Virus record (IMG/VR): IMGVR_UViG_3300028610_001021
Location: 1-25,730 of that record
Strand: one strand, 5' to 3'
From: a virus
DNA length: 25,730 nt
The notes beneath the pieces are model-generated. The model made no database searches. It was not told where the DNA came from and was given only the letters and a program-made list of their open reading frames with translations. Positions 5,533 to 22,734 of this stretch are shown here, piece by piece. Position numbers and translations under genes: made by a program. How positions within the stretch are numbered: position 1 is the stretch's first letter; each line of letters starts with the position of its first letter.

Positions 5533-6088
5533 AATCTGATATTATTAAAAACCTTCTTACTTCCTGCGCTATTTTATGACTCGGCTCTCCGTATAAATAG
5601 CCTTTTGCTATATGCTTTCTTATTTGAGTAATACTTGTTTGATGGATATTCCAGACTCTTTCGCTCAGTTCTATTCCATCAAGCGGCCTTCTTATTAAAG
5701 CTCTTACTGCCGCATGATGGACACTATTAAATACTGATGACGTCAACTTAATAGCAAATGTAGCCGGTAGAAATTCTTTATATACCTGCAATCGGTCTAT
5801 TGTATTCTTTAAGCTCATTTTTATTGATTTGTTAGATGCAGTTTGAATAGTGCTTAATATCTTATTATCCAATCGTTTCATTTCAGATGTTATGCTATCC
5901 AGAAACGTTCTAAGTGCAGCCGGAGCCAGGGGTGCATCTGCCGCCATTATCTTTGATCCTATTTTACCAGCCGCTTTTTTATATATCCGCCATAATTGTT
6001 TTTCACTGACTTTCTGATATGCTAAATGCGCTTTTCTGCCCTTGAGTAATGCCTTATTATATTTAACGGTTGCCTCAGTTATTGTCAT
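5501..6088 (-). CDS. Minor head protein, N-terminal part (Mu F-like), split by frameshift
   Basis: This 195-residue frame starts with an ATG that overlaps the portal stop (ATGA) and holds the helical N-terminal domain of a minor head protein. The end, YLYGEPSHKIAQEVRRFLI, is the segment that normally leads directly into the RTE motif of the C-terminal domain. Here it runs into a run of seven A and stops after ENKKMASVF. With one A fewer the protein would continue as ENKKWRAFFKEHPPGRGVYR, the beginning of the other frame, giving one protein of about 300 residues, the usual family size. Its place just after the portal gene is typical. Confidence 0.72.
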   Translation of the reverse strand: MTITEATVKYNKALLKGRKAHLAYQKVSEKQLWRIYKKAAGKIGSKIMAADAPLAPAALRTFLDSITSEMKRLDNKILSTIQTASNKSIKMSLKNTIDRLQVYKEFLPATFAIKLTSSVFNSVHHAAVRALIRRPLDGIELSERVWNIHQTSITQIRKHIAKGYLYGEPSHKIAQEVRRFLIISDYENKKMASVF

Positions 6089-7602
6089 GCTTCTGGCAAG
6101 TCCTCATCAGCTTCTTTTTTAAAGGATTCATCTTCCCGATCTTCCGGTAAGTCCTCTTCTCCGTTGCCCTCTTCTTCCTCTTCCTGCTTAATCAATTCTT
6201 GCTCTTTATCATAATCTCTATCAAGATCGGCGCATGCGGTATGATTGGATACCCAGCCCTCACCTTTTTGAATTACCAGAGCTTTACACAATTTCTCAAT
6301 ATCTCTTGCCACGATCTCCGGGAATACAATATTGCATTCTGTACTTAAGGGCTTGGTTACTTCCTGCTCTTCAAATGTTTTTACGCCGTCAACTTCTTTT
6401 TCGACTTTTTCGGTTACAGTTTCGCTGACTGGTAATATCCCTTTATCTATGCCGAATTGAATAACTCGCTCGAATATATCAGTAAAGATTATTGCAAAAA
6501 AGTCCTGCCAATCTTCAAACTCCATCACTGCTGGCCCTTCAGCTATCATGGTACTTGCATAAGAACTATTTGAAGCATCACCAGATGTCATATATTCTGG
6601 AAAACCGACACCTGTAGCAATCGCTAATAAAATAGCTCTGCCATCATGCTGTACATCGCTTGCTTGTAAATTTGGAGCCAGCATGTCATATTCAACACCC
6701 TTATTGGTAGTAAACATACTTACGCCTTCTGGTGCTCTTTGTTTCGCTGTACCATCAGCTGCTAATTGTTTACTGGTTTTTACTCTAGTTGCATCTGCAA
6801 TATTAGCGGCTTGTGAAGGTGATCCGGTTATTTTCCGTACTATAGCAACCGCTGCTCTAACCTTATTAAGCTTCATCCGATCTTTTAGCCAATCATTATA
6901 CATCTTAATTAATGGAGCAACAATTTCTAAAATAGACCGGCCTCGCTTTACATCCGAATCAACCATTATTTTATAATGATCAACTTCTTTAGCTTTTATT
7001 CTGTCGCCCTTATACCAGTACGCTAATACAGTTTCAATATCGTCTTTATCGGTTTCAATTCCATAAGTACATTTCCCGGTCATACCTTTAACTTTTCCTA
7101 ACTCTGGCCCCGGTTCTGGATCTGCCACCTTTCCAGGATTCATAAACCTAAGCGCAACTATTTCATGATCGTCAAAATATCGGTTAAATATTTCACCATC
7201 CCGGAATACTCTCCGCACAATTTCTTTCTTTCTCAAATCCATTTTATTGTGCTTCCAGAATTCTTTCCAAACTTCTTCAACGGCCTCTACTTCAGACATC
7301 GGCGATACAGAAAACCCTCTGCCTACAACATACTTTTCGAGTAACCGAATTATATTCCTGGCATGAGGTTCTTTATAATAAAATTTAGTTGCCTGTGTTC
7401 TGAGTGTTTCGCTATCAGTCGGACTTAATTCTTTCTCGCTTGATTCACCTAATAATATCCAATCATCTTCATCGGGGTCTTTTAAGCTATCCAGCGATTT
7501 CAAAGTATCTGCTTCTATATGCTCTATAACTTTAATCGCTAATTCTGCTTGCTTGATTCCTAAAATATGATCAAGTCTTCGTCTTCTCAATCCTTCAAAC
7601 AT
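6085..7602 (-). CDS. Portal protein
   Basis: A 505-residue protein between terminase and head genes. Recognisable features are the FYYKEPHARNIIRLLEKYVV segment near residue 75, the FRDGEIFNRYF motif near residue 140 (typical of the portal wing), VDSDVKRGRSILEIVAPLIK around residue 215, and a long stem/crown helix region. The last 40 residues are very acidic (many Glu and Asp), as in several portals of this type. The portal forms the dodecameric ring through which DNA is packaged and to which terminase docks. Its stop overlaps the start of the minor head gene. Confidence 0.85.
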   Translation of the reverse strand: MFEGLRRRRLDHILGIKQAELAIKVIEHIEADTLKSLDSLKDPDEDDWILLGESSEKELSPTDSETLRTQATKFYYKEPHARNIIRLLEKYVVGRGFSVSPMSEVEAVEEVWKEFWKHNKMDLRKKEIVRRVFRDGEIFNRYFDDHEIVALRFMNPGKVADPEPGPELGKVKGMTGKCTYGIETDKDDIETVLAYWYKGDRIKAKEVDHYKIMVDSDVKRGRSILEIVAPLIKMYNDWLKDRMKLNKVRAAVAIVRKITGSPSQAANIADATRVKTSKQLAADGTAKQRAPEGVSMFTTNKGVEYDMLAPNLQASDVQHDGRAILLAIATGVGFPEYMTSGDASNSSYASTMIAEGPAVMEFEDWQDFFAIIFTDIFERVIQFGIDKGILPVSETVTEKVEKEVDGVKTFEEQEVTKPLSTECNIVFPEIVARDIEKLCKALVIQKGEGWVSNHTACADLDRDYDKEQELIKQEEEEEGNGEEDLPEDREDESFKKEADEDLPEA

Positions 7603-8741: not shown

Positions 8742-9143
8742 CTATCGCTCCCCCTCTTTTATTATTTCTGATTCTTTCCGCCCTTTCAACCATCGCTTTA
8801 AATCAAAATACTTCCACGTATCCGGTTTCTTGATTATACCACAATCATAAGCCTTTTCATACCAGCAATGTTTTTTCCATCCGATGATATACATTCCTAA
8901 ATGTCTATATAATCGGCCTGTTTCTTCACTATTAACTTCATCATCTATCATAAGGCAATTATGATTTATTCCATATCCAACCAGTTTATCATCATGTATA
9001 AAATACATCTTATCATACTTTATAAGTTTCTTTGGTTGTTTTTTTACCATGCGGAATACATATCCAGTCGTCATATAATAGTCTCGTTTGTCCGCTCTAG
9101 TTTGTAAGTATACCTTTTTATCAAGCCTTATAATTATATCCAT
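8742..9143 (-). CDS. Tandem paralogue family, member 4 (unknown function)
   Basis: A 133-residue member of a family present four times in a row (also at 9369, 9879 and 10290). Shared features in order: MDII(I/V) start; a central QPKK basic turn; MYFIHDDKLVGYGI (the strand-turn-strand D-x-K-x-V-G-Y-G); a D-D-E segment; LGMYIIGWKKHCWYEKAYDC; and the C-terminal WKYFDLKRWLKGRKESEI. The strand pattern with K-x-V-G-Y-G recalls PUA-like folds (ASCH or EVE), but this is inference. It differs most from the others at the N-terminus. The start lacks a strong ribosome binding site. Confidence 0.65.
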   Translation of the reverse strand: MDIIIRLDKKVYLQTRADKRDYYMTTGYVFRMVKKQPKKLIKYDKMYFIHDDKLVGYGINHNCLMIDDEVNSEETGRLYRHLGMYIIGWKKHCWYEKAYDCGIIKKPDTWKYFDLKRWLKGRKESEIIKEGER

Positions 9144-9159
9144 TAATTATTAACTCGCT

Positions 9160-9369
9160 TTACAATTTATTAAACCTCATTATATCTTTCACCAGAGTTT
9201 CTTCTGTAATATTCCGTTTCTTACCTGCTCTATAATTCCGCTTTACACAACCGCACACAATCGGATTACCGCTTCTATCGGCTCCCAGGTATCCCCGACC
9301 ATAACATTTTTTACAGCTATTGTGCGCATAATCTTTTAGTACTATTTTTTCTTTTGTATTATATTCCAT
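9160..9369 (-). CDS. Small zinc-ribbon / DnaJ-type zinc-finger-like protein
   Basis: A 69-residue protein with the metal-binding pattern CKKCYGRGYLGADRSG and then IVCGCVKR: C-x2-C-x-G-x-G followed by C-x-C, like a minimal DnaJ-type zinc finger. The ATG at 9369 forms a TAATG junction with the upstream paralogue gene. It separates two members of the four-copy family. It probably binds zinc and perhaps nucleic acid or protein; the partner is unknown. Confidence 0.65.
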   Translation of the reverse strand: MEYNTKEKIVLKDYAHNSCKKCYGRGYLGADRSGNPIVCGCVKRNYRAGKKRNITEETLVKDIMRFNKL

Positions 9370-9878
9370 TAAATATCTTCACCTAATGGATGCTCTAATA
9401 TATTATCGTATTCTATTCCTTTTTTATGAGTTTCGGTATATCTTTTTAATCGTTCCATTTTATCTTTTTCGATTAAATATCTAATATCGACTATTTCTGA
9501 TTCCTCCCTATTCCCTAACCAGCGTTTCAGATTAAAATATTTCCAGTCTTGCGGTTTTCGTATCTTGTTACATTCGTAAGGCTGTATATACCAGTTCTGC
9601 TCTTTCCAACAAACTAAAGTTTTACCTAATTCTAAATACAACTTTCCGATAAATTCAGCATTATACTCGCTATCGACATATTCAGTATGGCATACCACAC
9701 CATACCCAACTAATCTACGATCATGTTCAAAATATATTTTTCCTTTTCCATATATTTTTAATTTTTTAGGTAGACTTTTTACTGTATGAAAGTGCCATCC
9801 TTCTTTTTTTGTAAAATCTCTTACATCGCCCAATAATCGCTGATATTCCGGTTCTTCTAATCTAACTATTATATCCAT
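9369..9878 (-). CDS. Tandem paralogue family, member 3 (unknown function)
   Basis: The longest member of the four-copy family, 169 residues. Shared core: SLPKKLKIYGKGKIYFEHDR, LVGYGV, then VDSEYNAEFIGKLYLELGKT, WKEQNWYIQPYEC, and WKYFNLKRWLGNREESEIVD. It has an extra C-terminal extension of about 30 residues (YLIEKDKMERLKRYTETHKK) with high charge. The start and stop each form TAATG junctions with neighbours. The function is unknown; a PUA-like fold is a guess from the strand pattern and G-Y-G motif. Confidence 0.68.
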   Translation of the reverse strand: MDIIVRLEEPEYQRLLGDVRDFTKKEGWHFHTVKSLPKKLKIYGKGKIYFEHDRRLVGYGVVCHTEYVDSEYNAEFIGKLYLELGKTLVCWKEQNWYIQPYECNKIRKPQDWKYFNLKRWLGNREESEIVDIRYLIEKDKMERLKRYTETHKKGIEYDNILEHPLGEDI

Positions 9879-10286
9879 TTATTTCTCCCTAATTTTCTCT
9901 ACATCAATCAGTTGTGGTTCTTCTCGACCAGCTAACCATCTTTTAAAATTGATATACTTCCACCTATTTTTCTTTAAGCTTTTATTATATTTATATTGTC
10001 TATCATACCAATTATTACTTCGCCACCTAATCATGACTTTTCCAACGTGTTCCCATATACCGCCTATACTTTCGGCCATTAATTCATCGTCTATCGGACA
10101 TATAAAATTAACAATTCCATACCCGACTATCTTACTATCGCAACAGAAATATATCTTATCTTTTTCTTTTGTTTTTTTCGGCATACTCTCAACTATAAGA
10201 AAAAAGTATCTATTATGGTAATAATCCTGTACTCCTTCTATTAACGATTCATATTGTCTTTTTGTAAATTCGCCTACTATATCCAT
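9879..10286 (-). CDS. Tandem paralogue family, member 2 (unknown function)
   Basis: A 135-residue paralogue: MDIVGEFTKRQYESLIEGVQ start, then SMPKKTKEKDKIYFCCDSKI, VGYGIVNF, DDELMAESIG, WRSNNWYDRQY and WKYINFKRWLAGREEPQLID. The conserved W-x4-WY and W-K-Y-x-x-x-K-R-W-L-x-G-R blocks are present. Divergence between copies is strong outside these blocks, so the duplications are probably old or under diversifying pressure. The function is unknown. Confidence 0.68.
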   Translation of the reverse strand: MDIVGEFTKRQYESLIEGVQDYYHNRYFFLIVESMPKKTKEKDKIYFCCDSKIVGYGIVNFICPIDDELMAESIGGIWEHVGKVMIRWRSNNWYDRQYKYNKSLKKNRWKYINFKRWLAGREEPQLIDVEKIREK

Positions 10287-10289
10287 TCA

Positions 10290-10682
10290 TCAAACCTTTA
10301 TTCTTGATTCTGTTCTACCGTTTAACCACTTTTTTAATTTGAAATATCGCCAATTATAAAAACCAAGCTTTTTAGTATAACTATATCCCTCTTGATACCA
10401 ATATTTATCTCTCCAAGCGATAAAATATTTCCCTATTATTGCCCATAATCGACCACGAAATAATGTATTATATTCGTCATCAATTAATCTAATAAAATCC
10501 AAAATAGCATAGCCAATTATTTTACCATCGCAAAGAAAATATATTCTATCTCCCTTCTTTGTTTTCTTCGGCTTTTTATTAACCGAATGAAATTGAAAGC
10601 CCTCCGGCTTTTCAAGATACTTTTCTCCATCGGCTATTGTTGAGTCATACTCTTCTGGCTGGAATTCTATTATTATATCCAT
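10290..10682 (-). CDS. Tandem paralogue family, member 1 (unknown function)
   Basis: The first transcribed member of the four-copy family, 130 residues: MDIIIEFQPEEYDSTIADGE, KKPKKTKKGDRIYFLCDGKI, IGYAILDFI, DDEYNTLFRG, WRDKYWYQEGY and WRYFKLKKWLNGRTESRIKV. The GDRIYFLCDGKIIGYA strand resembles the core of ASCH/EVE-type PUA-like domains (G-D-x-I-x-F ... G-x-I-x-G-x-A), which bind nucleic acids or modified bases. This is the copy where that likeness is clearest. It follows the Cys-rich gene at 10682 with a one-base overlap. Confidence 0.68.
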   Translation of the reverse strand: MDIIIEFQPEEYDSTIADGEKYLEKPEGFQFHSVNKKPKKTKKGDRIYFLCDGKIIGYAILDFIRLIDDEYNTLFRGRLWAIIGKYFIAWRDKYWYQEGYSYTKKLGFYNWRYFKLKKWLNGRTESRIKV

Positions 10683-11110
10683 TATGTTCTTATCTCAATA
10701 TCTTCTCTATTTAAATGTGGACATTCGCTGCTGCAATAATTGTTTATTTTATTAGGATGCTGACAACCGGTAGGGTTCATAGTAATTTTTCCATCAGCAT
10801 TAAGATGTTTTCCAAGCTTATCTAAATGATTCATGGGCTGAACATCTATAATTACTTCACCACTTCTAAATGGACAATGTTTAATAAGCTCTCGATAAGT
10901 TATATTCTGTCCTCCATTAACTGGTATTTTACTATCTCTCATAGCCATCTTCTTTGCATATTGTTTTATATATTCACAAGTATCATAACAAGTTTCTTGT
11001 TTCCCTGAGGCATAGCAAGCCCAACTAATTTCACAGTAATCACAAGGTCGTAGATTTAATTCTATTGCACCAGCCGGATTAAGCGGGGTTTTCATTATAT
11101 TATCTGACAT
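10682..11110 (-). CDS. Cysteine-rich hypothetical protein
   Basis: A 142-residue protein with many Cys: RPCDYCEISWACYASGKQET, CYDTCEYIKQYA, KHCPFRSGE, and near the end GCQHPNKINNYCSSECPHLN. The spacing suggests two metal-binding clusters, one N-terminal and one C-terminal (C-x2-H ... C-x3-C-x-H). I do not recognise the family. The first codons overlap the end of the small membrane gene upstream (11100-11261), so the two are likely coupled. Confidence 0.62.
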   Translation of the reverse strand: MSDNIMKTPLNPAGAIELNLRPCDYCEISWACYASGKQETCYDTCEYIKQYAKKMAMRDSKIPVNGGQNITYRELIKHCPFRSGEVIIDVQPMNHLDKLGKHLNADGKITMNPTGCQHPNKINNYCSSECPHLNREDIEIRT

Positions 11111-11261
11111 TTTTTTCCTCCCAAATAGTTACTTCTAATGTCCACACTAACCAAGAGAATTGAATAGCTGCAATATAGGGTGATCGGAATATTATAATGG
11201 TTGGTAATATATAAAACATATATTGTCTTTCAGTTGACTCATTATATAATTTAATTTTCAT
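11100..11261 (-). CDS. Small membrane protein (53 residues)
   Basis: The ATG at 11261 has a perfect TAGGAGG site 5-6 bases upstream, and the stop lies inside the next gene's start region (ATGTCAGATAA), both signs of a real gene. The peptide has a hydrophobic stretch (YMFYILPTIIIFRSPYIAAI) and a second aromatic, hydrophobic part (FSWLVWTLEVTIW), so one or two membrane passes are likely. The function is unknown. Confidence 0.62.
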   Translation of the reverse strand: MKIKLYNESTERQYMFYILPTIIIFRSPYIAAIQFSWLVWTLEVTIWEEKNVR

Positions 11262-11270
11262 TTTATCCTC

Positions 11271-11477
11271 CTATAAATACCCCCATTCATCTGTTCTTTT
11301 AAAGACAGGTATCATATCACCACTACGTAAAGCGTTTCGCTCTTTAGCTTTTCTCGCTCTTTTCCTTTCATACTTCCATACTTTGTCCGGTTTATACCAC
11401 GGCTTTTTATCTCGGTGATTAACAAGAGTACCCATTAATCTAAAACCTTCAGGATATGTACGATGTGTTCTACTCAT
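11271..11477 (-). CDS. Small basic hypothetical protein
   Basis: A 68-residue protein rich in Arg and Lys (KVWKYERKRARKAKERNALR), with a C-terminal DMIPVFKRTDEWGYL. The start overlaps the end of the upstream gene by 4 bases (ATGA). The basic middle may bind nucleic acid, but no motif proves it. I do not recognise it. Confidence 0.58.
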   Translation of the reverse strand: MSRTHRTYPEGFRLMGTLVNHRDKKPWYKPDKVWKYERKRARKAKERNALRSGDMIPVFKRTDEWGYL

Positions 11478-11773
11478 TCTGGCATTCCATAATTCCTTAC
11501 TGCCATATCTCCAAAAGCATCAGCTTCCATCAAAGCTGTTATTAATTCTTTTCTCTCTATTACATTTAGGCACACCATGTCAGAAAAGACATTACCGGTT
11601 ATTATAATATGCCAACAATATCTAAGCCTTTCTTTTAAGCTCATGTTCCATTTGCCGTATACCCAATAAGATAAATACGTTTCCACAATACTACTGTCTT
11701 TTGTAACTTGAATTATTTCGTGTTCAATCCCGATCCCGTGCGCCCCACATTCACATTTAATAAACGTTTTCAT
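11474..11773 (-). CDS. Small phage protein of a CxC-containing family
   Basis: A 99-residue protein starting MKTFIKCECGAHGIGIEHEI, with later SYWVYGKWNMSLKERLRYCW and VIERKELITALMEADAFG. The order (N-terminal K-C-x-C-x-x-H, a central W-x2-R-L-R-x-x-W helix, then a V-x-L-x-x-x-D/E-x-x-x-L helix) is that of small proteins common in phages near replication or packaging genes; the function is unknown to me. The start overlaps the preceding gene's stop (ATGA). Confidence 0.62.
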   Translation of the reverse strand: MKTFIKCECGAHGIGIEHEIIQVTKDSSIVETYLSYWVYGKWNMSLKERLRYCWHIIITGNVFSDMVCLNVIERKELITALMEADAFGDMAVRNYGMPE

Positions 11774-11901
11774 TTAATATTTTCCTTTCGGGTTGCCAAT
11801 ATCCTCTGACATTTTTTTATCATATCTTCTAATGTCTTCGTATATTTAATATCTATAAAATGTTTTGGATCAATCCTATAGTATTTCCCACATATTATCA
11901 T
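11770..11901 (-). CDS. Very small hypothetical protein (43 residues)
   Basis: A short ORF that fills the gap between the large terminase gene and the 99-residue gene. Its ATG overlaps the terminase stop (ATGA at 11901-11898) and its TGA overlaps the next ATG in the same way, so it links the two genes by translational coupling. AGGAAGGAG lies upstream at good spacing. The peptide, MIICGKYYRIDPKHFIDIKY and following, is basic and soluble. I do not recognise it. Confidence 0.6.
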   Translation of the reverse strand: MIICGKYYRIDPKHFIDIKYTKTLEDMIKKCQRILATRKENIK

Positions 11902-13418
11902 AACAATACTCCTTCCTCTTCCTTAGCTTCCTGGTAATCGTCTACCCCTTCAACTATATCGACTCTCGCTAAACAGTACACAAAAGAATCGCCTTTATCC
12001 GGTGATCTGCCTAACCGCTTTTTATACTCTTCTTTGAGTTCTGCCTTTCTTCTGCTATCACTATGTATTTTATATTTCATCCCGCTTAGTTCTTCAATAA
12101 GCTCTGGATCATCGGGAATTGATATTACATTTCCCTCTTTATATTGCCGCTCGAATATAGCCCTGGCATGCCACCACATTTCCATTCTGTAGTTATAAAA
12201 AGTATCTCTATCATAAGCGCTTGACCCTGACATTAACCCATAACAGGCATATCCCAATTCGGCCAATCTATCAAATACACCGCTCCCCACTCCATCAGCA
12301 TCTATTTTTATTATCCCTCTAAGTAGAGAAGCGTGCGGCAATATACCTCTTTCTTTCATTTCAATTGCGATAATACCAGAGGTCTCCATCGTATTTTGCA
12401 TCTCTGTTAATACGCTTCTATCATCGCCCATCCGTGCAACATCTGCTCCGAACGTTAAAGGGAATTCGTTTTTATCAACCTCTGCTTCTACAGCCGATAA
12501 TAGCCATGCCAGCGGTATAATATTGTCAACTCCTTGCTCCCAAAATTCGCCTATAACTTTGCATGACCATAACTCCGGTCGATCTATTTTCCATGCTTCT
12601 TCTCGACCATCAATCCACGTATCATCGGCTATTTGTATCTTCTCTATAAGTGCTATCGGCCATTCTGCTTTATTTTTAAACTTGCCAAACGCAAACAACT
12701 TTTTATTAAGATACTTTTTATATTCTTTTCTTACTGTAGCCGGACTAACAAAAGGTGAGTCCCAAGCCGACATATTTATACATTTCCATTCACTTCTCCG
12801 GCTTGTGTGGTGCTGTCTGAAGGGTGCTAACTGATCTGCTCCATCGGTGGTTGATATTTCCAGCATTTTAGCTTTACCACTCATACTACCGTCAAGCGCA
12901 TCATAACACCACTGTGGAATACCTTTTGCTTCATCTAAAATAAATAATATATGAGCACTATGCCAACCCTCTATTCTTGTGGCATTATCGGTGGCAAAAC
13001 CGATCATATAGCTTTCAGGATTGCACTTAACTTCTACTTGCAGGCAAGTACCCCTGAGCTCTTTACCGATCCGCATATATATTTCTCTGATCTCTTTCCA
13101 TAAAAGTTTTTCTATTTGCCGGTTACCGGGAGCTGTGGTTACAACAATCGCATCTTCATAAAGGTTTAAATAAGTTACCGCTATTGCAGCCGCTACCTTA
13201 GTTTTGCTTATTGCATGGCAAGCTCTTATGCTTACTCTCTTATTATTCCAGACAGCGTCTATCGCCATTCGCATACCCGACCATAATTTAATACCGAGTT
13301 TATGCTCAATAAAAAAGTCTGGATGTTGGAGATAAGTATATTCCAAATCCGCTTGCGCCTTTGCTATATCTGAGATTGGCTTTTTAGTTGTTTGAAGCGA
13401 TAATATCTGTTGGGACAT
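11898..13418 (-). CDS. terL: Terminase large subunit
   Basis: A 506-residue packaging motor. The ATPase domain has an adenine/Walker A region near residue 65-75 (IRACHAISKTKVAAA), a Walker B with catalytic Glu at FILDEAKGIP (about residue 160), and an STTD coupling motif (about 190). The nuclease domain has TFGADVARMGDDRS (about residue 320), IKIDADGVGSGVFDRL and a C-terminal GDSFVYCLARVD (RNase H-like acidic residues). The Walker A is unusual: Ser replaces the last Gly of GxGKS/T. It cuts and translocates DNA into the prohead through the portal. The start lies inside the end of the small subunit gene (35-base overlap). Confidence 0.9.
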   Translation of the reverse strand: MSQQILSLQTTKKPISDIAKAQADLEYTYLQHPDFFIEHKLGIKLWSGMRMAIDAVWNNKRVSIRACHAISKTKVAAAIAVTYLNLYEDAIVVTTAPGNRQIEKLLWKEIREIYMRIGKELRGTCLQVEVKCNPESYMIGFATDNATRIEGWHSAHILFILDEAKGIPQWCYDALDGSMSGKAKMLEISTTDGADQLAPFRQHHTSRRSEWKCINMSAWDSPFVSPATVRKEYKKYLNKKLFAFGKFKNKAEWPIALIEKIQIADDTWIDGREEAWKIDRPELWSCKVIGEFWEQGVDNIIPLAWLLSAVEAEVDKNEFPLTFGADVARMGDDRSVLTEMQNTMETSGIIAIEMKERGILPHASLLRGIIKIDADGVGSGVFDRLAELGYACYGLMSGSSAYDRDTFYNYRMEMWWHARAIFERQYKEGNVISIPDDPELIEELSGMKYKIHSDSRRKAELKEEYKKRLGRSPDKGDSFVYCLARVDIVEGVDDYQEAKEEEGVLL

Positions 13419-13907: not shown

Positions 13908-15173
13908 TTATTTCCTTATTTTGCCATTTAACTTAATTTTTATTTTTCGTTCATTTTTAACGCACCAATCCTTATATCTCTGTACTATTACATCGCAATA
14001 CTGCGGTTCTATTTCCATGCCATAACATATTCGGTCAGTTTTTTCGCAGGCAATGAGGGTGGAGCCAGAGCCAAGGAATAAATCAAGAATAATTATATCC
14101 TTACATCCATATTTTTCAAATATCCATTCATATAATGCAATTGGTTTTTGTGTCGGATGTATTCTTTTGTTTCCATGTTCGCTTGCTTTTATCATTCCAC
14201 TCCATTTATGTCTACATATACCTATTGATCTTTTTATATTTGTCCATGCAATCTCCCCATCGCCAAATGTTCCGGCTGTCTCTTTATCCCATATTATCCA
14301 ACATGAAGCTGGTTTTAATTTATGCGCATAATAATTACCACCCCATAATATTATTTTTTTTATATTTAGCTCTTTACAGATAATATATGCTTTTAAAGCT
14401 GTTTCTATTGAATCATCATTTTTTATTTTTTTATATATGTTTGCTTTACATATTGAATCTGCTCCTACATATCCGCTTGTTCTTTTTCCTGTTGTTTTCC
14501 CAAATGATTTATCACCTCCAATCTTTCCTATTTTAACTATATTTATTCCATAGGGCGGATCATTTACTGCCATATTTATTTTATTATTATTCACCAATCT
14601 ATTGACCTGTTCTATATCCGTGCTATCCCCGCATAACACTCGATGTCCATTCAATTCCCACAAATCGCCCATTTTAGTTATTGTTTTGACTTTTTCTGGT
14701 ATTTCATCGTCGTCAATAGTTTCTTCTTCGGGAAACACAATATCAATATCAGGTATTTCTATTGTATCTATCAAAGACTCTATATCTAAATCAGCCTCAT
14801 TAATAAAATCCATTAATCCTGCCTCAGTTATTATTCCATATTGGCTTGCGATTCCAAGCAATTTTTCTTTAGCTTCTTTTTTATTATCAGCTTTTATATA
14901 GTCGATTGGCAATTTTGCTGGTATCTTATATCCTTCCTTCTGCAATTCCAATAAGGCTTTAACTCTTGAATGACCATCCAAAATATATGCTTTGCTTTTG
15001 TCGGATTTTTTCCATATAAAGATCGGTGCGCTGAAATTGTTTTTAATGATATTATTCTTAAGTTTCTGCATATTCTCAGGCGTAATCTTTTTGAGATCGC
15101 CCTGGAAATCTATCAGCTTATTGATCGGCAATAAACCGGCTCCCTTACAAGCTATCTTAATTTCCTTTGCCAT
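13908..15173 (-). CDS. ParB-like nuclease domain fused to DNA methyltransferase
   Basis: A 421-residue protein. Residues about 10-130 are a ParB/Srx-like domain (INKLIDFQGDLKKI, AYILDGHSRVKALLELQKE with the GHxR motif). Residues about 175-410 are a DNA N4/N6-type methyltransferase: VNDPPYGINI (DPPY catalytic motif), WIIWDK, IHPTQKPIALYEWI, LDLFLGSGSTLIACEKTDR (SAM-binding FxGxG), and MEIEPQYCDVIVQRY. The catalytic motif comes before the SAM motif, the beta-class order. Such fusions are frequent in phages upstream of terminase and protect DNA from restriction or mark packaging substrates. No partner restriction enzyme is next to it. Confidence 0.88.
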   Translation of the reverse strand: MAKEIKIACKGAGLLPINKLIDFQGDLKKITPENMQKLKNNIIKNNFSAPIFIWKKSDKSKAYILDGHSRVKALLELQKEGYKIPAKLPIDYIKADNKKEAKEKLLGIASQYGIITEAGLMDFINEADLDIESLIDTIEIPDIDIVFPEEETIDDDEIPEKVKTITKMGDLWELNGHRVLCGDSTDIEQVNRLVNNNKINMAVNDPPYGINIVKIGKIGGDKSFGKTTGKRTSGYVGADSICKANIYKKIKNDDSIETALKAYIICKELNIKKIILWGGNYYAHKLKPASCWIIWDKETAGTFGDGEIAWTNIKRSIGICRHKWSGMIKASEHGNKRIHPTQKPIALYEWIFEKYGCKDIIILDLFLGSGSTLIACEKTDRICYGMEIEPQYCDVIVQRYKDWCVKNERKIKIKLNGKIRK

Positions 15174-15373
15174 TATCTCACCTTTGGCTTTAATGGTATC
15201 ATTATTGGTATTCCTAATATATGGATTATTATTACATATTTATCTATGCGTAATCCGAATATCGGATAGCTTCCATATTCGTCGAATATTCCAATTACTA
15301 TTATATAAATAATAAAATAATTTCTGCAAATAGCCAATTCAAACAAACTAATCTTCAAGGAAAGTTTCCGCAT
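15173..15373 (-). CDS. Small hydrophobic membrane protein
   Basis: A 66-residue protein. GGAGG at 15380-15384 is 6 bases from the ATG at 15373, so I choose this over an ATG six bases upstream. Most of it is hydrophobic (NYFIIYIIVIGIF, then YVIIIHILGIPIMIPL), giving two likely membrane segments. It overlaps the nuclease gene's end and touches the methyltransferase start. The function is unknown; a phage membrane or lysis-related role is possible but unsupported. Confidence 0.5.
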   Translation of the reverse strand: MRKLSLKISLFELAICRNYFIIYIIVIGIFDEYGSYPIFGLRIDKYVIIIHILGIPIMIPLKPKVR

Positions 15374-15908
15374 AATCATCCTCCCCGTCTTTTATTGGAA
15401 TTGCAACCCTCGGCTTGCCGTTTAGTTTATATGGCCGCACATCTATTATCTTAGCCGGAATTCTCAATACGTCAAACCATTGTTTCCTTAATGGTAAGTA
15501 TAAACCTTTGTCTCTTAGTTCTTCAAGCTGGCTTTTAACTATTGAACAGCGCATTTCCCAGGCTTTTTTATTCGGCTGGATAAAGAATAGATCAAATCCT
15601 ATCCGATATAAATATATTCCGACTATTATTATCGGCGTTGAAAGTACTGAATTGGTTTCTATCAGGCAAAGATTATCTATCTGATGTTCGCTTAATTTCT
15701 GAAATGGAAAAGCCTGATAACCCTTAAGCATCTTTGTTTCAAAATAGTAATGAAAACTATCTAATACAGCATATCCATCATGTGGCCGTCTTATATTAAA
15801 TCGTTGACCTTCATCATCGGTAAACATCGGATCGGGAATTTTATAAGCAAATCCGCCGGCTGCTTGAAAGTTCTTTACTATCAGACTATTAAGATTTACT
15901 TCTTTCAT
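15348..15908 (-). CDS. PD-(D/E)XK-type nuclease (Holliday-junction resolvase / RecU-like)
   Basis: About 186 residues. The core is RRPHDGYAVLD followed by YYFETKMLKGYQAFPFQKLS and EHQIDNLCLIE. The D ... E-T-K arrangement is the PD-(D/E)XK catalytic set, and the F-P-F-x-x-L-S-E-H-Q block following it is characteristic of RecU-like or related Holliday-junction/endonuclease proteins. It may resolve replication branches before packaging, in line with the neighbouring terminase. GGAGGGC just upstream favours the start at 15908; an ATG at 15920 is the alternative. It overlaps the upstream gene by about 20 bases. Confidence 0.68.
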   Translation of the reverse strand: MKEVNLNSLIVKNFQAAGGFAYKIPDPMFTDDEGQRFNIRRPHDGYAVLDSFHYYFETKMLKGYQAFPFQKLSEHQIDNLCLIETNSVLSTPIIIVGIYLYRIGFDLFFIQPNKKAWEMRCSIVKSQLEELRDKGLYLPLRKQWFDVLRIPAKIIDVRPYKLNGKPRVAIPIKDGEDDYAETFLED

Positions 15909-16161
15909 CATGCCCTCCATATAGTATTTCGTTTCGCCGGTTAAGCGTTGCCATTAAATTATCTATAGTATTTTTATTCATCGGTGACTGAACTATATGA
16001 CTAATTGTTTCACTTTCAATTATTTTATCAGGATGTTCTTCACAAAATATAACCAAAATATTTCTATATCCTTTTTGCTGCAAAAAAATTATTACAGATT
16101 GACCAGCAATAGTACCCCTTTCTTGACAATCTTCCGGAATAAACCGATTTCCAATCTGCAT
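15889..16161 (-). CDS. Hypothetical phage protein
   Basis: A 90-residue protein starting at a TAATG junction with the upstream gene: MQIGNRFIPEDCQERGTIAG then VIIFLQQKGYRNILVIFCEE. The alternating hydrophobic stretches suggest a small alpha/beta fold. Its end overlaps the nuclease gene's start. I do not recognise the family. Confidence 0.6.
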   Translation of the reverse strand: MQIGNRFIPEDCQERGTIAGQSVIIFLQQKGYRNILVIFCEEHPDKIIESETISHIVQSPMNKNTIDNLMATLNRRNEILYGGHDERSKS

Positions 16162-17318
16162 TATTTTAACGGCTTACATTGTCCGGCAGATAATTTTTCG
16201 ACTATTCCTGGATTATCAAATTCAAAGGAACCGTACACAAAACCGTAATCATTTGAAACAGGCAAATCCCGGCCTTTGTGCGACTGTACAACATCCCACT
16301 GTGTACTGACATATAAATCAGTCGAACTATTTTTTATACAAGGCAAATAATCCCTATTAAGACATGACCACAACGATAGTATTTTATATCCTGTTGTGTA
16401 ATTCTGAATATATCCATACCCTCTGTGCATCGGCCACAATCTATTCAACACAGAAGGGCAATAGGTTGAATTTTGATTTATTATTAGATCATTAATCAAA
16501 TCTTCTTCTATCCATTTCCGCCAATCTATTATTGTATTACCTATCGGCGGCCCCAAAATATCACCCGTAGGAATACCAATCGCTAAAGATTTATTTTTAT
16601 CATTAAGGTCTTTTCTTATTTCTCTAATAAATTCAGTTAAATATGAACCAAGCAAATAGCGCCATGTATCCAAATCAAAATCATCATTACAAATATCTTT
16701 ATAATGATCTTTTCTTACTGGCTCATTAAATTCAAACTGATCTGCAAAATCAGCCGGTTTTGATTGCGATCTTAAACAGATAAATAAACCATCAAAATCA
16801 GTATCATCTATTAAATTTATAAAATGTTCTCTGAAATATTTCCGCACTTCTGGATAAGCCAAACTTAAAACGCCCCATTGTCTTTTGGTTCCGCTTCGAT
16901 CCACTCTATGATATTCGGGGTGTTCATAAGCAAATCTGCTCAAGCGAGCAGTATATTGCACTTTAGTACTATGATAACTGACCTTTCGTTCTTTTAATGA
17001 CGGTAACGGCCAACCCTCATCAAACAAATGAACATATAAATATATTTTCATTCCCATTCTATGTGCTATAGCCGGTACTTCATGATCTTCCACATCTGTG
17101 GCTTTGGCCTTCGGTTTTTTGCAGATCATATTATGAAATGAATTAAACGGTTTATGTTCTGCTTTTCTGATTCCTCGCCAGTATATTTTTTCAATATTTA
17201 ATTTATCTTTCCACATCTTCATCCTGCGCTCTATAGCATCTAAAGTTAATAATTGACTATCGCCGCTTTTTTCATAAGATTTATGGTCACCCCAGGATAC
17301 ATTAATTATGTTTTTCAT
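16161..17318 (-). CDS. Glycoside-hydrolase-like TIM-barrel protein
   Basis: A 385-residue protein with a layout recalling family-10-like putative glycosyl hydrolases (GHL-type): an early strand (INVSWGDHKSY), a central strand MKIYLYVHLFDEGWPLPSLK, FAYEHPEYHRVDRSG, then LSLAYPEVRKYFREHFINLI, DFDGLFICLRSQSKPADFAD, and FEFNEPVRKDHYKDI. The Y-P-E-V-R-x-Y-F ... D-x-DG-x-F-x-x-x-R-S ... F-N-E-P sequence is the recognisable part; the Glu in FNEP is a candidate catalytic residue. It has no signal peptide, so it acts in the cytoplasm or on the virion. The end and start overlap neighbours by one and four bases. The substrate is unknown. Confidence 0.6.
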   Translation of the reverse strand: MKNIINVSWGDHKSYEKSGDSQLLTLDAIERRMKMWKDKLNIEKIYWRGIRKAEHKPFNSFHNMICKKPKAKATDVEDHEVPAIAHRMGMKIYLYVHLFDEGWPLPSLKERKVSYHSTKVQYTARLSRFAYEHPEYHRVDRSGTKRQWGVLSLAYPEVRKYFREHFINLIDDTDFDGLFICLRSQSKPADFADQFEFNEPVRKDHYKDICNDDFDLDTWRYLLGSYLTEFIREIRKDLNDKNKSLAIGIPTGDILGPPIGNTIIDWRKWIEEDLINDLIINQNSTYCPSVLNRLWPMHRGYGYIQNYTTGYKILSLWSCLNRDYLPCIKNSSTDLYVSTQWDVVQSHKGRDLPVSNDYGFVYGSFEFDNPGIVEKLSAGQCKPLK

Positions 17319-17962
17319 AATCTTCTAATCTCAAGAAACGCTTTTTCAATATCCTCATATTTTTCAGGGAAATATCCGAGATAGTCTATGACCTTATTCA
17401 TAATCGCCATTTCCAGCGGATAGTCAATGTCAATTTTCATCGCTGTTTTTGTCGGTGGCATTATATCCGAACAATCAACCCTTAGATACCGAGGATCCCC
17501 TTCTGGTATTACATGAGCCTGTGCGTAACATTCTTGAATTTCATCTCTATTGCTGCATGATTTATAAGCCTTTACTTGAGCTTCAATACCTTTTCTTGAT
17601 ATTCCGGTACTTGAATGTCCACTAACAGGACAACCTAAAGGTGTATAAGCTCCATAAACCCAATGCTGCGGTTTTTCTCGCATAACATTAATTATTCTTT
17701 GTGCTATTTCTAAATCGAAAAACGGACTGTCACCAGATAATGTAAGAGCATGAGTTATACCAAACATATTCCATGTTTCAATATGCCGGTCTGCTAACTC
17801 AAAATTTGATCCTCTATAACAAGCTATATCGTTTGCTTCTGCTATTTCTTGCAATATATCATCAACCTTTAATACGGATGTTGATAATACTACACCGTCA
17901 ATATTTTTAAGCTTCTTACTTTTTGCAATTATCTGTTCTATCATAGCTTTTCCGCCAAGCAT
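17315..17962 (-). CDS. SpsF-like nucleotidyltransferase, second copy (N-terminal motif out of frame)
   Basis: This 215-residue frame matches the body of SpsF/cytidylyltransferase-like sugar nucleotidyltransferases: LGGKAMIEQIIAKSKKLKNI, VVLSTSVLKVDD, then LADRHIETWNMFGITHALTL, SGDSPFFDLEIA and MKIDIDYPLEMAIMNKVIDY. The only ATG/GTG/TTG start is at MLGG, which leaves out the nucleotide-binding N-terminal motif. That motif is present directly upstream in the same frame (17963-18004, ARCSSGRFPNKVLS), but no start codon precedes it before a TAG. It overlaps the end of the first copy (17941-18594). It might be a truncated gene or part of a frameshift product. The role is presumably in activating a surface sugar. 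Confidence 0.7.
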   Translation of the reverse strand: MLGGKAMIEQIIAKSKKLKNIDGVVLSTSVLKVDDILQEIAEANDIACYRGSNFELADRHIETWNMFGITHALTLSGDSPFFDLEIAQRIINVMREKPQHWVYGAYTPLGCPVSGHSSTGISRKGIEAQVKAYKSCSNRDEIQECYAQAHVIPEGDPRYLRVDCSDIMPPTKTAMKIDIDYPLEMAIMNKVIDYLGYFPEKYEDIEKAFLEIRRL

Positions 17963-18594
17963 AGAAAGAACTTTATTCGGAAATCTACCGGATGAACACC
18001 TTGCTGTAGTGCGACTTCCAGCGGATAAGCTATGTTTAAACTAATCAGATATTTATTTCTTAAGGCTTCATCTTTCCAATCATATAAAAAATATCTTTCT
18101 CCTTCTGGTCGTTCTACCCACCATAGCTCTTGATCAGTTCCTTTTTCTTTATACTTCTCAATAACACTTCTATTTAGAAGACTATGGAAGATTCCTTCTG
18201 ACGATACGTGCATATACCTATAATATATATGTCCTGGATGCATTCTTGCAGCTTGTATTGTTTCTTCTATTAATTTTATTTCTATAAACGGCCAATTAGC
18301 CGGTTGCGGATAAAAATAATCCAGATCGTATTTCATTACAGCTTCATAATATCTTAATCCCCGATCATCCGGCGGCCCCGTAATAAACTGAACTCCATAT
18401 TTACCAGCTAAATTCATTAACCATTTATCCTCTGGATAGTCTGTAGTCGATAAAATAATTTCATCAAAGCCTTTGATCTTTACCAATCTTTCAATCACTC
18501 TTTCGATGATTGATAATCCTCCCAGTTTGGCTTTGATCTTATCCGGCCATCGGCCAAAATTTGATCTTGCTAATACAATCGCACCTATTTTCAT
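17941..18594 (-). CDS. SpsF-like nucleotidyltransferase, first copy
   Basis: A 217-residue protein with an intact N-terminal nucleotide-binding segment: MKIGAIVLARSNFGRWPDKI then KAKLGGLSIIERVIERLVKI (A-R-x2-S/x-G-R-x-P-x-K and LGG). EIILSTTDYPEDKWLM, YDLDYFYPQPANWPF and the late SLNIAYPLEVALQQG follow the family's order. SpsF-type enzymes activate sugars as nucleotide derivatives (often CMP) for surface polysaccharide synthesis. The normal YPLE motif is close to the C-terminus, after which about 20-30 residues seem missing compared with the second copy. It starts at an ATGA overlap with the membrane protein gene. Confidence 0.72.
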   Translation of the reverse strand: MKIGAIVLARSNFGRWPDKIKAKLGGLSIIERVIERLVKIKGFDEIILSTTDYPEDKWLMNLAGKYGVQFITGPPDDRGLRYYEAVMKYDLDYFYPQPANWPFIEIKLIEETIQAARMHPGHIYYRYMHVSSEGIFHSLLNRSVIEKYKEKGTDQELWWVERPEGERYFLYDWKDEALRNKYLISLNIAYPLEVALQQGVHPVDFRIKFFLCLAEKL

Positions 18595-21300: not shown

Positions 21301-21453
21301 AAATTCGCTCTCATATTTTGGTTTTCTCTTTATCAGTGGCTCGCTAGGCCCCGATGGTTTTCTCATCTATTGTGACTCGCTTCCTCTTACTGGTTTTCTC
21401 GTGGTTATTGGCTCGCTCTACCCACGTGGTTTTCTTAATCGTCCTGGCTTATT
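21301..21453 (-). repeat. TIGR-like interspaced guide array 1 (4 units)
   Basis: On the + strand TGGTTTTCTC starts at 21319, 21355, 21391 and 21427, exactly 36 bases apart. Halfway between lies TGGCTCGCT (21337; TGACTCGCT at 21373; 21409; degenerate TGGCTTATT at 21445). A further degenerate half-repeat AAATTCGCT is at 21301. Spacers of 8 bases (TTTATCAG, ATCTATTG, GTGGTTAT, AATCGTCC) and 9 bases (CTCATATTT, AGGCCCCGA, TCCTCTTAC, CTACCCACG) alternate and are all different. The array fills the gap between the HNH-Nop gene stop (21454) and the permease start. It is read as a guide array in the sense of TIGR systems; strand is assumed from the gene direction. Confidence 0.88.
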
Positions 21454-22425
21454 TTATAAATCTTCTGGATACAGCCAACCCCTTTCTTTCGGATCGATCT
21501 GATCATCATGTCCCAACATATCTTTACCATAAGTATTATCAGTGGAGAGACCTAAAAATTTACGAGCTACAACCCAATAATCGCCGCTTAATTCTTTCAT
21601 CATTTTTCTATAAGCTGCCCCATGTCGATGGCATTTCATTGCATCTTTCCATTTTAAAGTTACAAGCTCACCTTTTCGGTTTCGGCTTTTGACGGGTTTT
21701 TCACTTATAGCAAGACGGTCTTTGATTCTATCGCCAATTACTCGATAGGGGCATTCCCTGTTTTTCCACATCGAATCAACAGCCCGCCATAAAGCAGTCC
21801 TTAAACTTTTGTTCCCCCCACTAGTTTCGCCCTTTGTATAACGGTCATGGCTCGGCCTATCTAATCCTATATACTTCCAGACAGACGAACGATGTTTTGC
21901 TTTTTCAGGAATGATATAAGTCAACAGGTAAGCTATTGTTTGCGCCGCCAAACCCTTAACATTCAAAGCTGATTTAACAATACCTTCATCTTTATGATCC
22001 TTAACCCATATTTCTATCAGTCTCGTTCTCTGCAATACTTTGTCATGTAATTCCGGTAACATTTCTTCTAATTGAACTTTAGTTATTTCTGAACAGTCGT
22101 CGGTTTTTCTGTTATAGGCTCTCAGTTGATTTTCAATTTTGTTTTTGAGTTTTAACCATTGCTCTCGATCATCAATCGCTATTTTTAATGCGCCCAGATC
22201 TTCGGGTCTTATTCTATGAGCACCATGCCTTTTCATGTGGCAGGTGGGGCAGGCTAGCCGTGTATTATCTATTTCATATCCTTGTCCCTGGGCTTTCGGT
22301 ATTAATCGGTCTGTATCAATTAATCCTTTTTCGATTTGGTCTTTCGTAATTTCACCACCACAGATATAACAATAATATCCATGCTCTTCTCCAACCTTAT
22401 TCTTTAACCCTATTTTATTACCCAT
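21454..22425 (-). CDS. tasH: TasH-like protein: HNH nuclease fused to Nop / IS110-C-terminal-like domain
   Basis: A 323-residue protein with a perfect AGGAGGT site before the ATG. Residues about 15-70 are an HNH domain: YYCYICGGEI (C-x2-C), DTDRLIPKAQGQGYEIDNTR, then LACPTCHMKRHG (N and second C-x2-C). The usual DH of the motif reads DR here. Residues about 105-300 hold a helical Nop / Transposase_20-like domain: VKGLAAQTIAYLLTYI, SSVWKYIGLDRPSHDRYTKG, SGGNKSLRTALWRAVDSMWK and YWVVARKFLGL. Nop domains bind box C/D-type RNAs, and HNH-Nop proteins beside interspaced repeat arrays define TasH of TIGR-Tas. Arrays lie on both sides. It lacks the DEDD RuvC-like domain of an IS110 transposase, so it is unlikely to be one. 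Confidence 0.82.
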   Translation of the reverse strand: MGNKIGLKNKVGEEHGYYCYICGGEITKDQIEKGLIDTDRLIPKAQGQGYEIDNTRLACPTCHMKRHGAHRIRPEDLGALKIAIDDREQWLKLKNKIENQLRAYNRKTDDCSEITKVQLEEMLPELHDKVLQRTRLIEIWVKDHKDEGIVKSALNVKGLAAQTIAYLLTYIIPEKAKHRSSVWKYIGLDRPSHDRYTKGETSGGNKSLRTALWRAVDSMWKNRECPYRVIGDRIKDRLAISEKPVKSRNRKGELVTLKWKDAMKCHRHGAAYRKMMKELSGDYWVVARKFLGLSTDNTYGKDMLGHDDQIDPKERGWLYPEDL

Positions 22426-22473: not shown

Positions 22474-22734
22474 AAAAACGCTTACCTTATTTGGTTTTCT
22501 TAGAACTAATGGCTCGCTCATATTAGCTGGTTTTCTCCTGATACTTGGCTCGCTTGTATATTTTGGTTTCCTCGCATTCCCTGACTCGCTCATTCAGCAT
22601 GGTTTTCTCTGATAACGTGGCTCGCTCCCCGGATGTGGTTTTCTCTCAATCAATGGCTCGCTCCGATCAAATGGTTTTCTCTCTTTGGTTGGCTCGCTCA
22701 GGGCGCATGGTTTTCTCAAGATCGCTGGCTCTTT
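22474..22734 (-). repeat. TIGR-like interspaced guide array 2 (7 units)
   Basis: TGGTTTTCTC (+ strand) starts at 22492, 22528, 22564 (TGGTTTCCTC), 22600, 22636, 22672 and 22708, and TGGCTCGCT at 22510, 22546, 22582 (TGACTCGCT), 22618, 22654, 22690 and degenerate TGGCTCTTT at 22726. All are on one exact 36-base period with half-repeats 18 bases apart. A degenerate half-repeat AAAAACGCT at 22474 closes the other end. Spacers of 8 bases: AGAACTAA, CTGATACT, GCATTCCC, TGATAACG, TCAATCAA, TCTTTGGT, AAGATCGC. Spacers of 9 bases: TACCTTATT, CATATTAGC, TGTATATTT, CATTCAGCA, CCCCGGATG, CCGATCAAA, CAGGGCGCA. None is shared with array 1. The array lies between the binding-protein stop and the tasH leader. 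Confidence 0.9.

Follow-up and report, generated by a model that had tools for sequence, protein, structure and literature searches.

In a 25,730-nt stretch of viral DNA (hereafter the window; positions 1 to 25,730 of IMG/VR record IMGVR_UViG_3300028610_001021), four adjacent genes encode diverged copies of a small protein whose predicted fold is PUA-like. We put forward, with a probability of about one half, that this array is a lineage-specific tandem expansion of single-domain, ASCH-like accessory proteins that bind nucleic acid and whose ligands have diversified, probably in the course of phage-host conflict. Stand-alone proteins resembling ASCH and EVE domains occur widely, and for most of them no function is known. 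As many as six diverged copies sharing one slot in close phages constitute a natural specificity series, in which a single scaffold with differing α1-β2 segments would make the recognition properties of the fold, and its switching between targets, directly testable.

The four genes lie on the minus strand at 10290..10682 (paralogue 1, 130 aa), 9879..10286 (paralogue 2, 135 aa), 9369..9878 (paralogue 3, 169 aa, with a C-terminal extension of ~35 residues) and 8742..9143 (paralogue 4, 133 aa). An initial annotation, made from the sequence alone, had described them as four tandem, diverged paralogues built on a fixed motif frame, and this description is borne out: the proteins align end to end, all-against-all BLASTP yields pairwise identities of 37-47% with E-values of 1e-21 to 1e-35, and copy 2, used as a query on the record, retrieves the other three with E-values of 2e-30 to 1e-27. 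Paralogy of the four window copies is far beyond chance. Their full-length alignment contains 29 invariant columns, which include M-D-I, P-K-K, Y-F, D, G-Y, D-x-E, W-x4-W-Y and W..Y...K.W-L..R.E. The genes stand where the initial annotation placed them, but the array is not an unbroken tandem, being interrupted between copies 3 and 4 by a 69-aa Cys-rich ORF (9160..9369, minus strand) with the motif CKKCYGRGY..CGC (CxxCxGxG). Gene junctions across the block, this ORF included, measure 3, 0, -1 and 16 nt, and such tight spacing suggests that the block forms a single coupled unit of transcription and translation. Promoter-like sites showed no enrichment over shuffled sequence. A second Cys-rich ORF of 142 aa (10682..11110, minus strand) adjoins the array on its upstream side.

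Searches with Pfam, PHROGs, NCBIfam and PADLOC profiles and sequence searches of the PDB gave no credible match to the family, and scattered single-member profile hits at E-values of 0.002-0.1 were discounted, the families involved being unrelated or unknown. This is a previously unclassified sequence family, unseen by all four profile collections. Direct scans with the four window sequences, covering IMG/VR, 84,980 species genomes and 50,697 phage records, found no homologue. Relatives were reached solely through the terminase, in records of the same phage lineage with 69-97% terminase identity, and copies in these terminase-linked records were counted by means of a profile built from the four window sequences. 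The family is present once each in G001/L005 and G006/L010 (profile E-value 1e-39), in at least four copies in G003/L007 and in at least six in G004/L008, the last two counts being lower bounds because the arrays reach the contig ends. Homologues were found in these four IMG/VR records only, all of the phage lineage of the window. Wider scans anchored on terminase, portal (2 loci) and capsid (41 loci) reached ~40 further records, mostly fragments that may miss the relevant interval, and neither the capsid- nor the portal-anchored scan, nor that on terminase, added a family member. A counterpart of the 69-aa Cys-rich ORF accompanies the single copy in L005 (69% identity), L010 has only a remnant match, and the N-terminal half of the 142-aa ORF is common to the ORF heading the L007 and L008 arrays. 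L010 is nearly identical to L005, but its terminase and head-protein ORFs are disrupted by frameshifts or deletions (10001-11526 and 15123-16045); these broken ORFs could reflect a decayed copy or assembly errors.

Further comparisons cover 11 family sequences. A common core is retained (MDI, KxPKK, YF, GY, W94 and Y112), with W94 invariant and Y47, G56 and Y112 each present in 10 of the 11 members. Net charge ranges from +4 to +14 in ten members and is +1 in the remaining one.

An AlphaFold2 model of the single-copy L005 homologue, built on the 11-sequence alignment, reached a pLDDT of 84.6 and a pTM of 0.76 (five models spanned pLDDT 82.7-84.6), with secondary-structure elements in the order E-H-E-E-E-H-E-E-H. 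Foldseek comparison of this model with the PDB ranked ZmASCH first (E-value 1.3e-4, probability 1.00), and the list below it comprised other ASCH proteins, VcaM4I, TRIP4, EOLA1, McrB and YTH. With VIA-align, for which Z-scores under 8 may be common, the model superimposed on ZmASCH with a Z-score of 9.6 at 3.2 Å over 112 residues, nearly the whole domain, and scored 8.0 against the TRIP4 ASCH domain, 7.7 against EOLA1, 7.5 against EVE, 7.1 against the McrB N-terminal domain and 6.3 against YTH. We give weight to this fold assignment because PUA-like domains make up nearly all of the ranked PDB matches and the alignment spans the domain. Many of the named matches in BFVD, a viral structure library, are likewise ASCH, DUF3850 or EVE proteins, including those of phages. 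The assignment is read from one model, that of the L005 homologue; a model of window copy 1 derived from only four sequences reached a pLDDT of 56.7 and gave no useful structural match. Since the window copies are homologous to the modelled L005 sequence (E-values of 1e-19 to 1e-26; 37% identity and 2e-24 for paralogue 1), the predicted fold carries over to them. The initial guess of a PUA-like fold related to ASCH and EVE domains gains support from this confident model and its extended best match to an ASCH protein, and we consider it very probable that the family has a PUA-like fold, the model being nearest to ASCH domains within that superfamily.

Proximity in structure does not extend to sequence. 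ASCH domains (PF04266; ZmASCH 5guq/5y6b, TRIP4 ASCH, YqfB) are the best structural match of the family, but its members share 12-13% identity with ZmASCH, are arranged in tandem arrays and give no hit to the Pfam ASCH profile at E-values up to 5 in any of the 11 members or in the records, control genomes being positive. The ASCH signature GxKxxxxR, as defined in PMC5615036, is missing from all 11 sequences, and its absence throughout identifies the family as a new divergent branch of the PUA-like superfamily, outside Pfam ASCH. EVE proteins are single-domain readers of modified bases in conflict contexts (PMC7641849). The EVE/DUF55 domains (2eve, THYN1) share the PUA-like fold, but their structural match to the family model (Z-scores of 7.4-7.5) is weaker than that of ASCH, and Pfam EVE (PF01878) matches none of the 11 members; the m6A reader YTH and the McrB N-terminal domain share the fold at a greater distance than ASCH (5.7-7.1), all of these scores lying below 8, where values may be common. 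DUF3850 and ASCH proteins of phages in BFVD are, like the array proteins, stand-alone PUA-like proteins, the closest predicted structure being A0A8S5L992 of Myoviridae sp. ctPuP5 (TM 0.57/0.63, 21% identity) and another match being A0A2U7NYH3 of Hot spring virus BHS1, but no sequence-level link to the family was found among the 50,697 phage records. We know of no tandem arrays of phage DUF3850 or ASCH proteins, and a search of an incomplete literature library turned up no description of ASCH genes arrayed in tandem in a phage.

Under the interpretation we favor, the array would be an expansion of single-domain PUA-like proteins specific to one lineage of uncultured tailed phages, each protein binding RNA, or DNA or RNA carrying a modified base, through a pocket and a basic cleft beside the β-barrel. 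ZmASCH is a Mg-dependent ssRNase that binds nucleic acid in a cleft on the side of the barrel (PMC5615036), ASCH/PUA and EVE domains recur as readers of modified bases in defence and conflict systems (PMC7641849, PMC12839542), and excision of 5hmC from phage DNA by an ASCH-like protein is described in a preprint (PMC13160076). By analogy with these relatives we deem nucleic-acid binding by the family reasonably likely; its net positive charge and conserved K-x-P-K-K loop are suggestive of such binding, and only that. The α1-β2 segment, which in ASCH proteins holds GxKxxxxR and part of the cleft, is together with residues 101-109 the least conserved part of the family, so that different copies probably recognize different ligands. 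That each copy has its own partner or target, as first surmised from the retention of four distant copies, would fit their variable number and fast divergence. This combination of a conserved core and variable segments fits a constant scaffold whose recognition changes, but variable loops are common to most protein families. The dispensability, local occurrence, amplification and rapid evolution of the family make conflict with the host or with rival elements the most likely driver, and the proteins may compete for, mask or mis-report a nucleic-acid mark read by defence systems. That conflict has diversified their targets is a claim we make tentatively, and modified-base binding and an anti-defence role are likewise inferred. 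A more specific version, in which the phage would carry a repertoire of PUA-fold readers, each copy dedicated to one modified base or RNA mark and turned over as the modification-sensing defences of its hosts change, strikes us as unlikely. Against an anti-defence reading, the genes are tightly spaced within the structural (late) region, which is an unusual location for early-acting anti-defence genes.

Small phage anti-defence proteins often act by blocking proteins, and the PUA-like scaffold might have been reused for inhibitors that bind a host defence protein, or some other protein, one per copy, with no nucleic-acid ligand. The family's rapid divergence, its amplification, its dispensability and its lack of the ASCH motif would all suit such inhibitors, but nearly all copies combine the basic K-x-P-K-K loop with a positive net charge and the relatives of the fold are overwhelmingly nucleic-acid binders; we rate this explanation at perhaps one chance in several. 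Less probable still is that the proteins are ASCH-type enzymes, either a YqfB-like ac4C amidohydrolase or a ZmASCH-like ribonuclease, acting on RNA or nucleosides of phage or host. The shared fold of ZmASCH (PMC5615036) and YqfB (PMC6972931) and the rank of ZmASCH as top match speak for catalysis. YqfB, an N4-acetylcytidine amidohydrolase, depends on three residues in the stretch covered by GxKxxxxR, namely Lys21, Thr24 and Arg26, and its Thr-Lys-Glu triad draws Lys21 and Thr24 from the GxKxxT portion of it (PMC6972931). No family member has GxKxxxxR, segment 17-34, where these residues would lie, is unconserved and has no Lys or Thr common to the family, and the conserved polar residues include no obvious candidate for a catalytic triad. 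Since the segment of the YqfB catalytic residues is unconserved here, an enzyme of the YqfB type appears unlikely.

The genomic position of the array is shared by its relatives. In every record holding both borders, the family sits between the terminase large subunit gene (TerL; 11898..13418, minus strand, upstream of the array in the window) and the portal gene (6085..7602, minus strand, downstream), the latter assigned from gene order and conservation with L005. The TerL-portal interval measures 4.3 kb in the window, falls to 2.1-2.2 kb in L005 and L010, and is just 30-303 nt in L025-L027, L049-L051, L053, L056, L062 and L063; it is occupied by unrelated genes in L047 and L066, and unrelated ORFs are also present in L005. 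Because its size and contents vary among related phages, the interval is an accessory-gene (cargo) slot, in which the number of family copies varies from 1 to at least 6. A role in packaging or head assembly, with selection for a location between the terminase and portal genes, would account for the fixed position within the late gene block. Such a role is nonetheless quite improbable, given that most related phages have no such gene in the slot, that in L005, L047 and L066 it houses unrelated ORFs, and that 1 to at least 6 fast-diverging copies are atypical of packaging parts.

The array proteins diverge much faster than their neighbors when the window is compared with the single-copy phage. 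Over the full alignment, the window copies are 33-38% identical to the family member of L005, against 78% for TerL, 73% for portal, 71% for capsid, 67% for a ParB-methyltransferase and 69% for the 69-aa ORF. Pairwise identity among the copies inside L008 is merely 20-34%. In a maximum-likelihood tree with mostly unresolved deep branches, the four window copies cluster (weak support, 73/83) and most L008 copies fall elsewhere, which suggests that the two arrays probably expanded separately. L007 and L008 differ at 26 positions over 4,051 nt, and the four genes they share are intact, with 2 synonymous and 2 non-synonymous changes. Relaxed tandem duplication, in which redundant copies drift with no distinct functions, would explain high divergence and variable copy number, but it is the least probable of the explanations considered, in that every complete copy, despite the divergence, is still an undisrupted ORF and keeps the conserved core, W94 included, and the near-identical L007 and L008 arrays contain no disrupted gene.

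The ParB-methyltransferase gene (13908-15173), beside that of the small terminase, combines an apparent ParB-like domain, recognized by eye, with an N6/N4 DNA methylase (PF01555, E-value 1e-15). It is 67% identical in L005 and L010, lacks a counterpart at the syntenic position in L007 (a 5.7-kb fragment) and is matched only as separate pieces in the distant L026. As a candidate writer, this adjacent enzyme might supply a mark for the array proteins to read. That possibility is disfavored because L007 carries an array while lacking the gene at the corresponding position, and it is further weakened by the distant L025, in which a relative of the ParB part occurs and the array is absent. In L025, a small ORF at 1336-1623, between the ParB-like methylase and terminase genes, resembles S-adenosylmethionine decarboxylase by eye.

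Further along the window, positions 16161-18594 hold two adjoining cytidylyltransferase-like genes and a gene whose 385-aa product gives a weak GHL10 glycosidase-like match; this last gene also lies upstream of terminase in L007. Between 19193 and 24071, two ORFs resembling ABC sugar-transporter permeases by eye accompany a solute-binding protein (Pfam SBP_bac_1, E-value 8e-21) whose N-terminus, FAEGQQE, is reminiscent of spirochaetes; these sugar-transporter genes are either cargo or a prophage-host boundary. A period-36 array with no Rfam match, in which two ~10-nt repeats, TGGTTTTCTC and TGGCTCGCTC, alternate with each other across variable ~8-nt spacers, occupies positions 21306-21435 and 22479-22734. 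These repeats flank an HNH-containing ORF (21454..22425, minus strand) whose C-terminal half looks by eye like an IS110 transposase.
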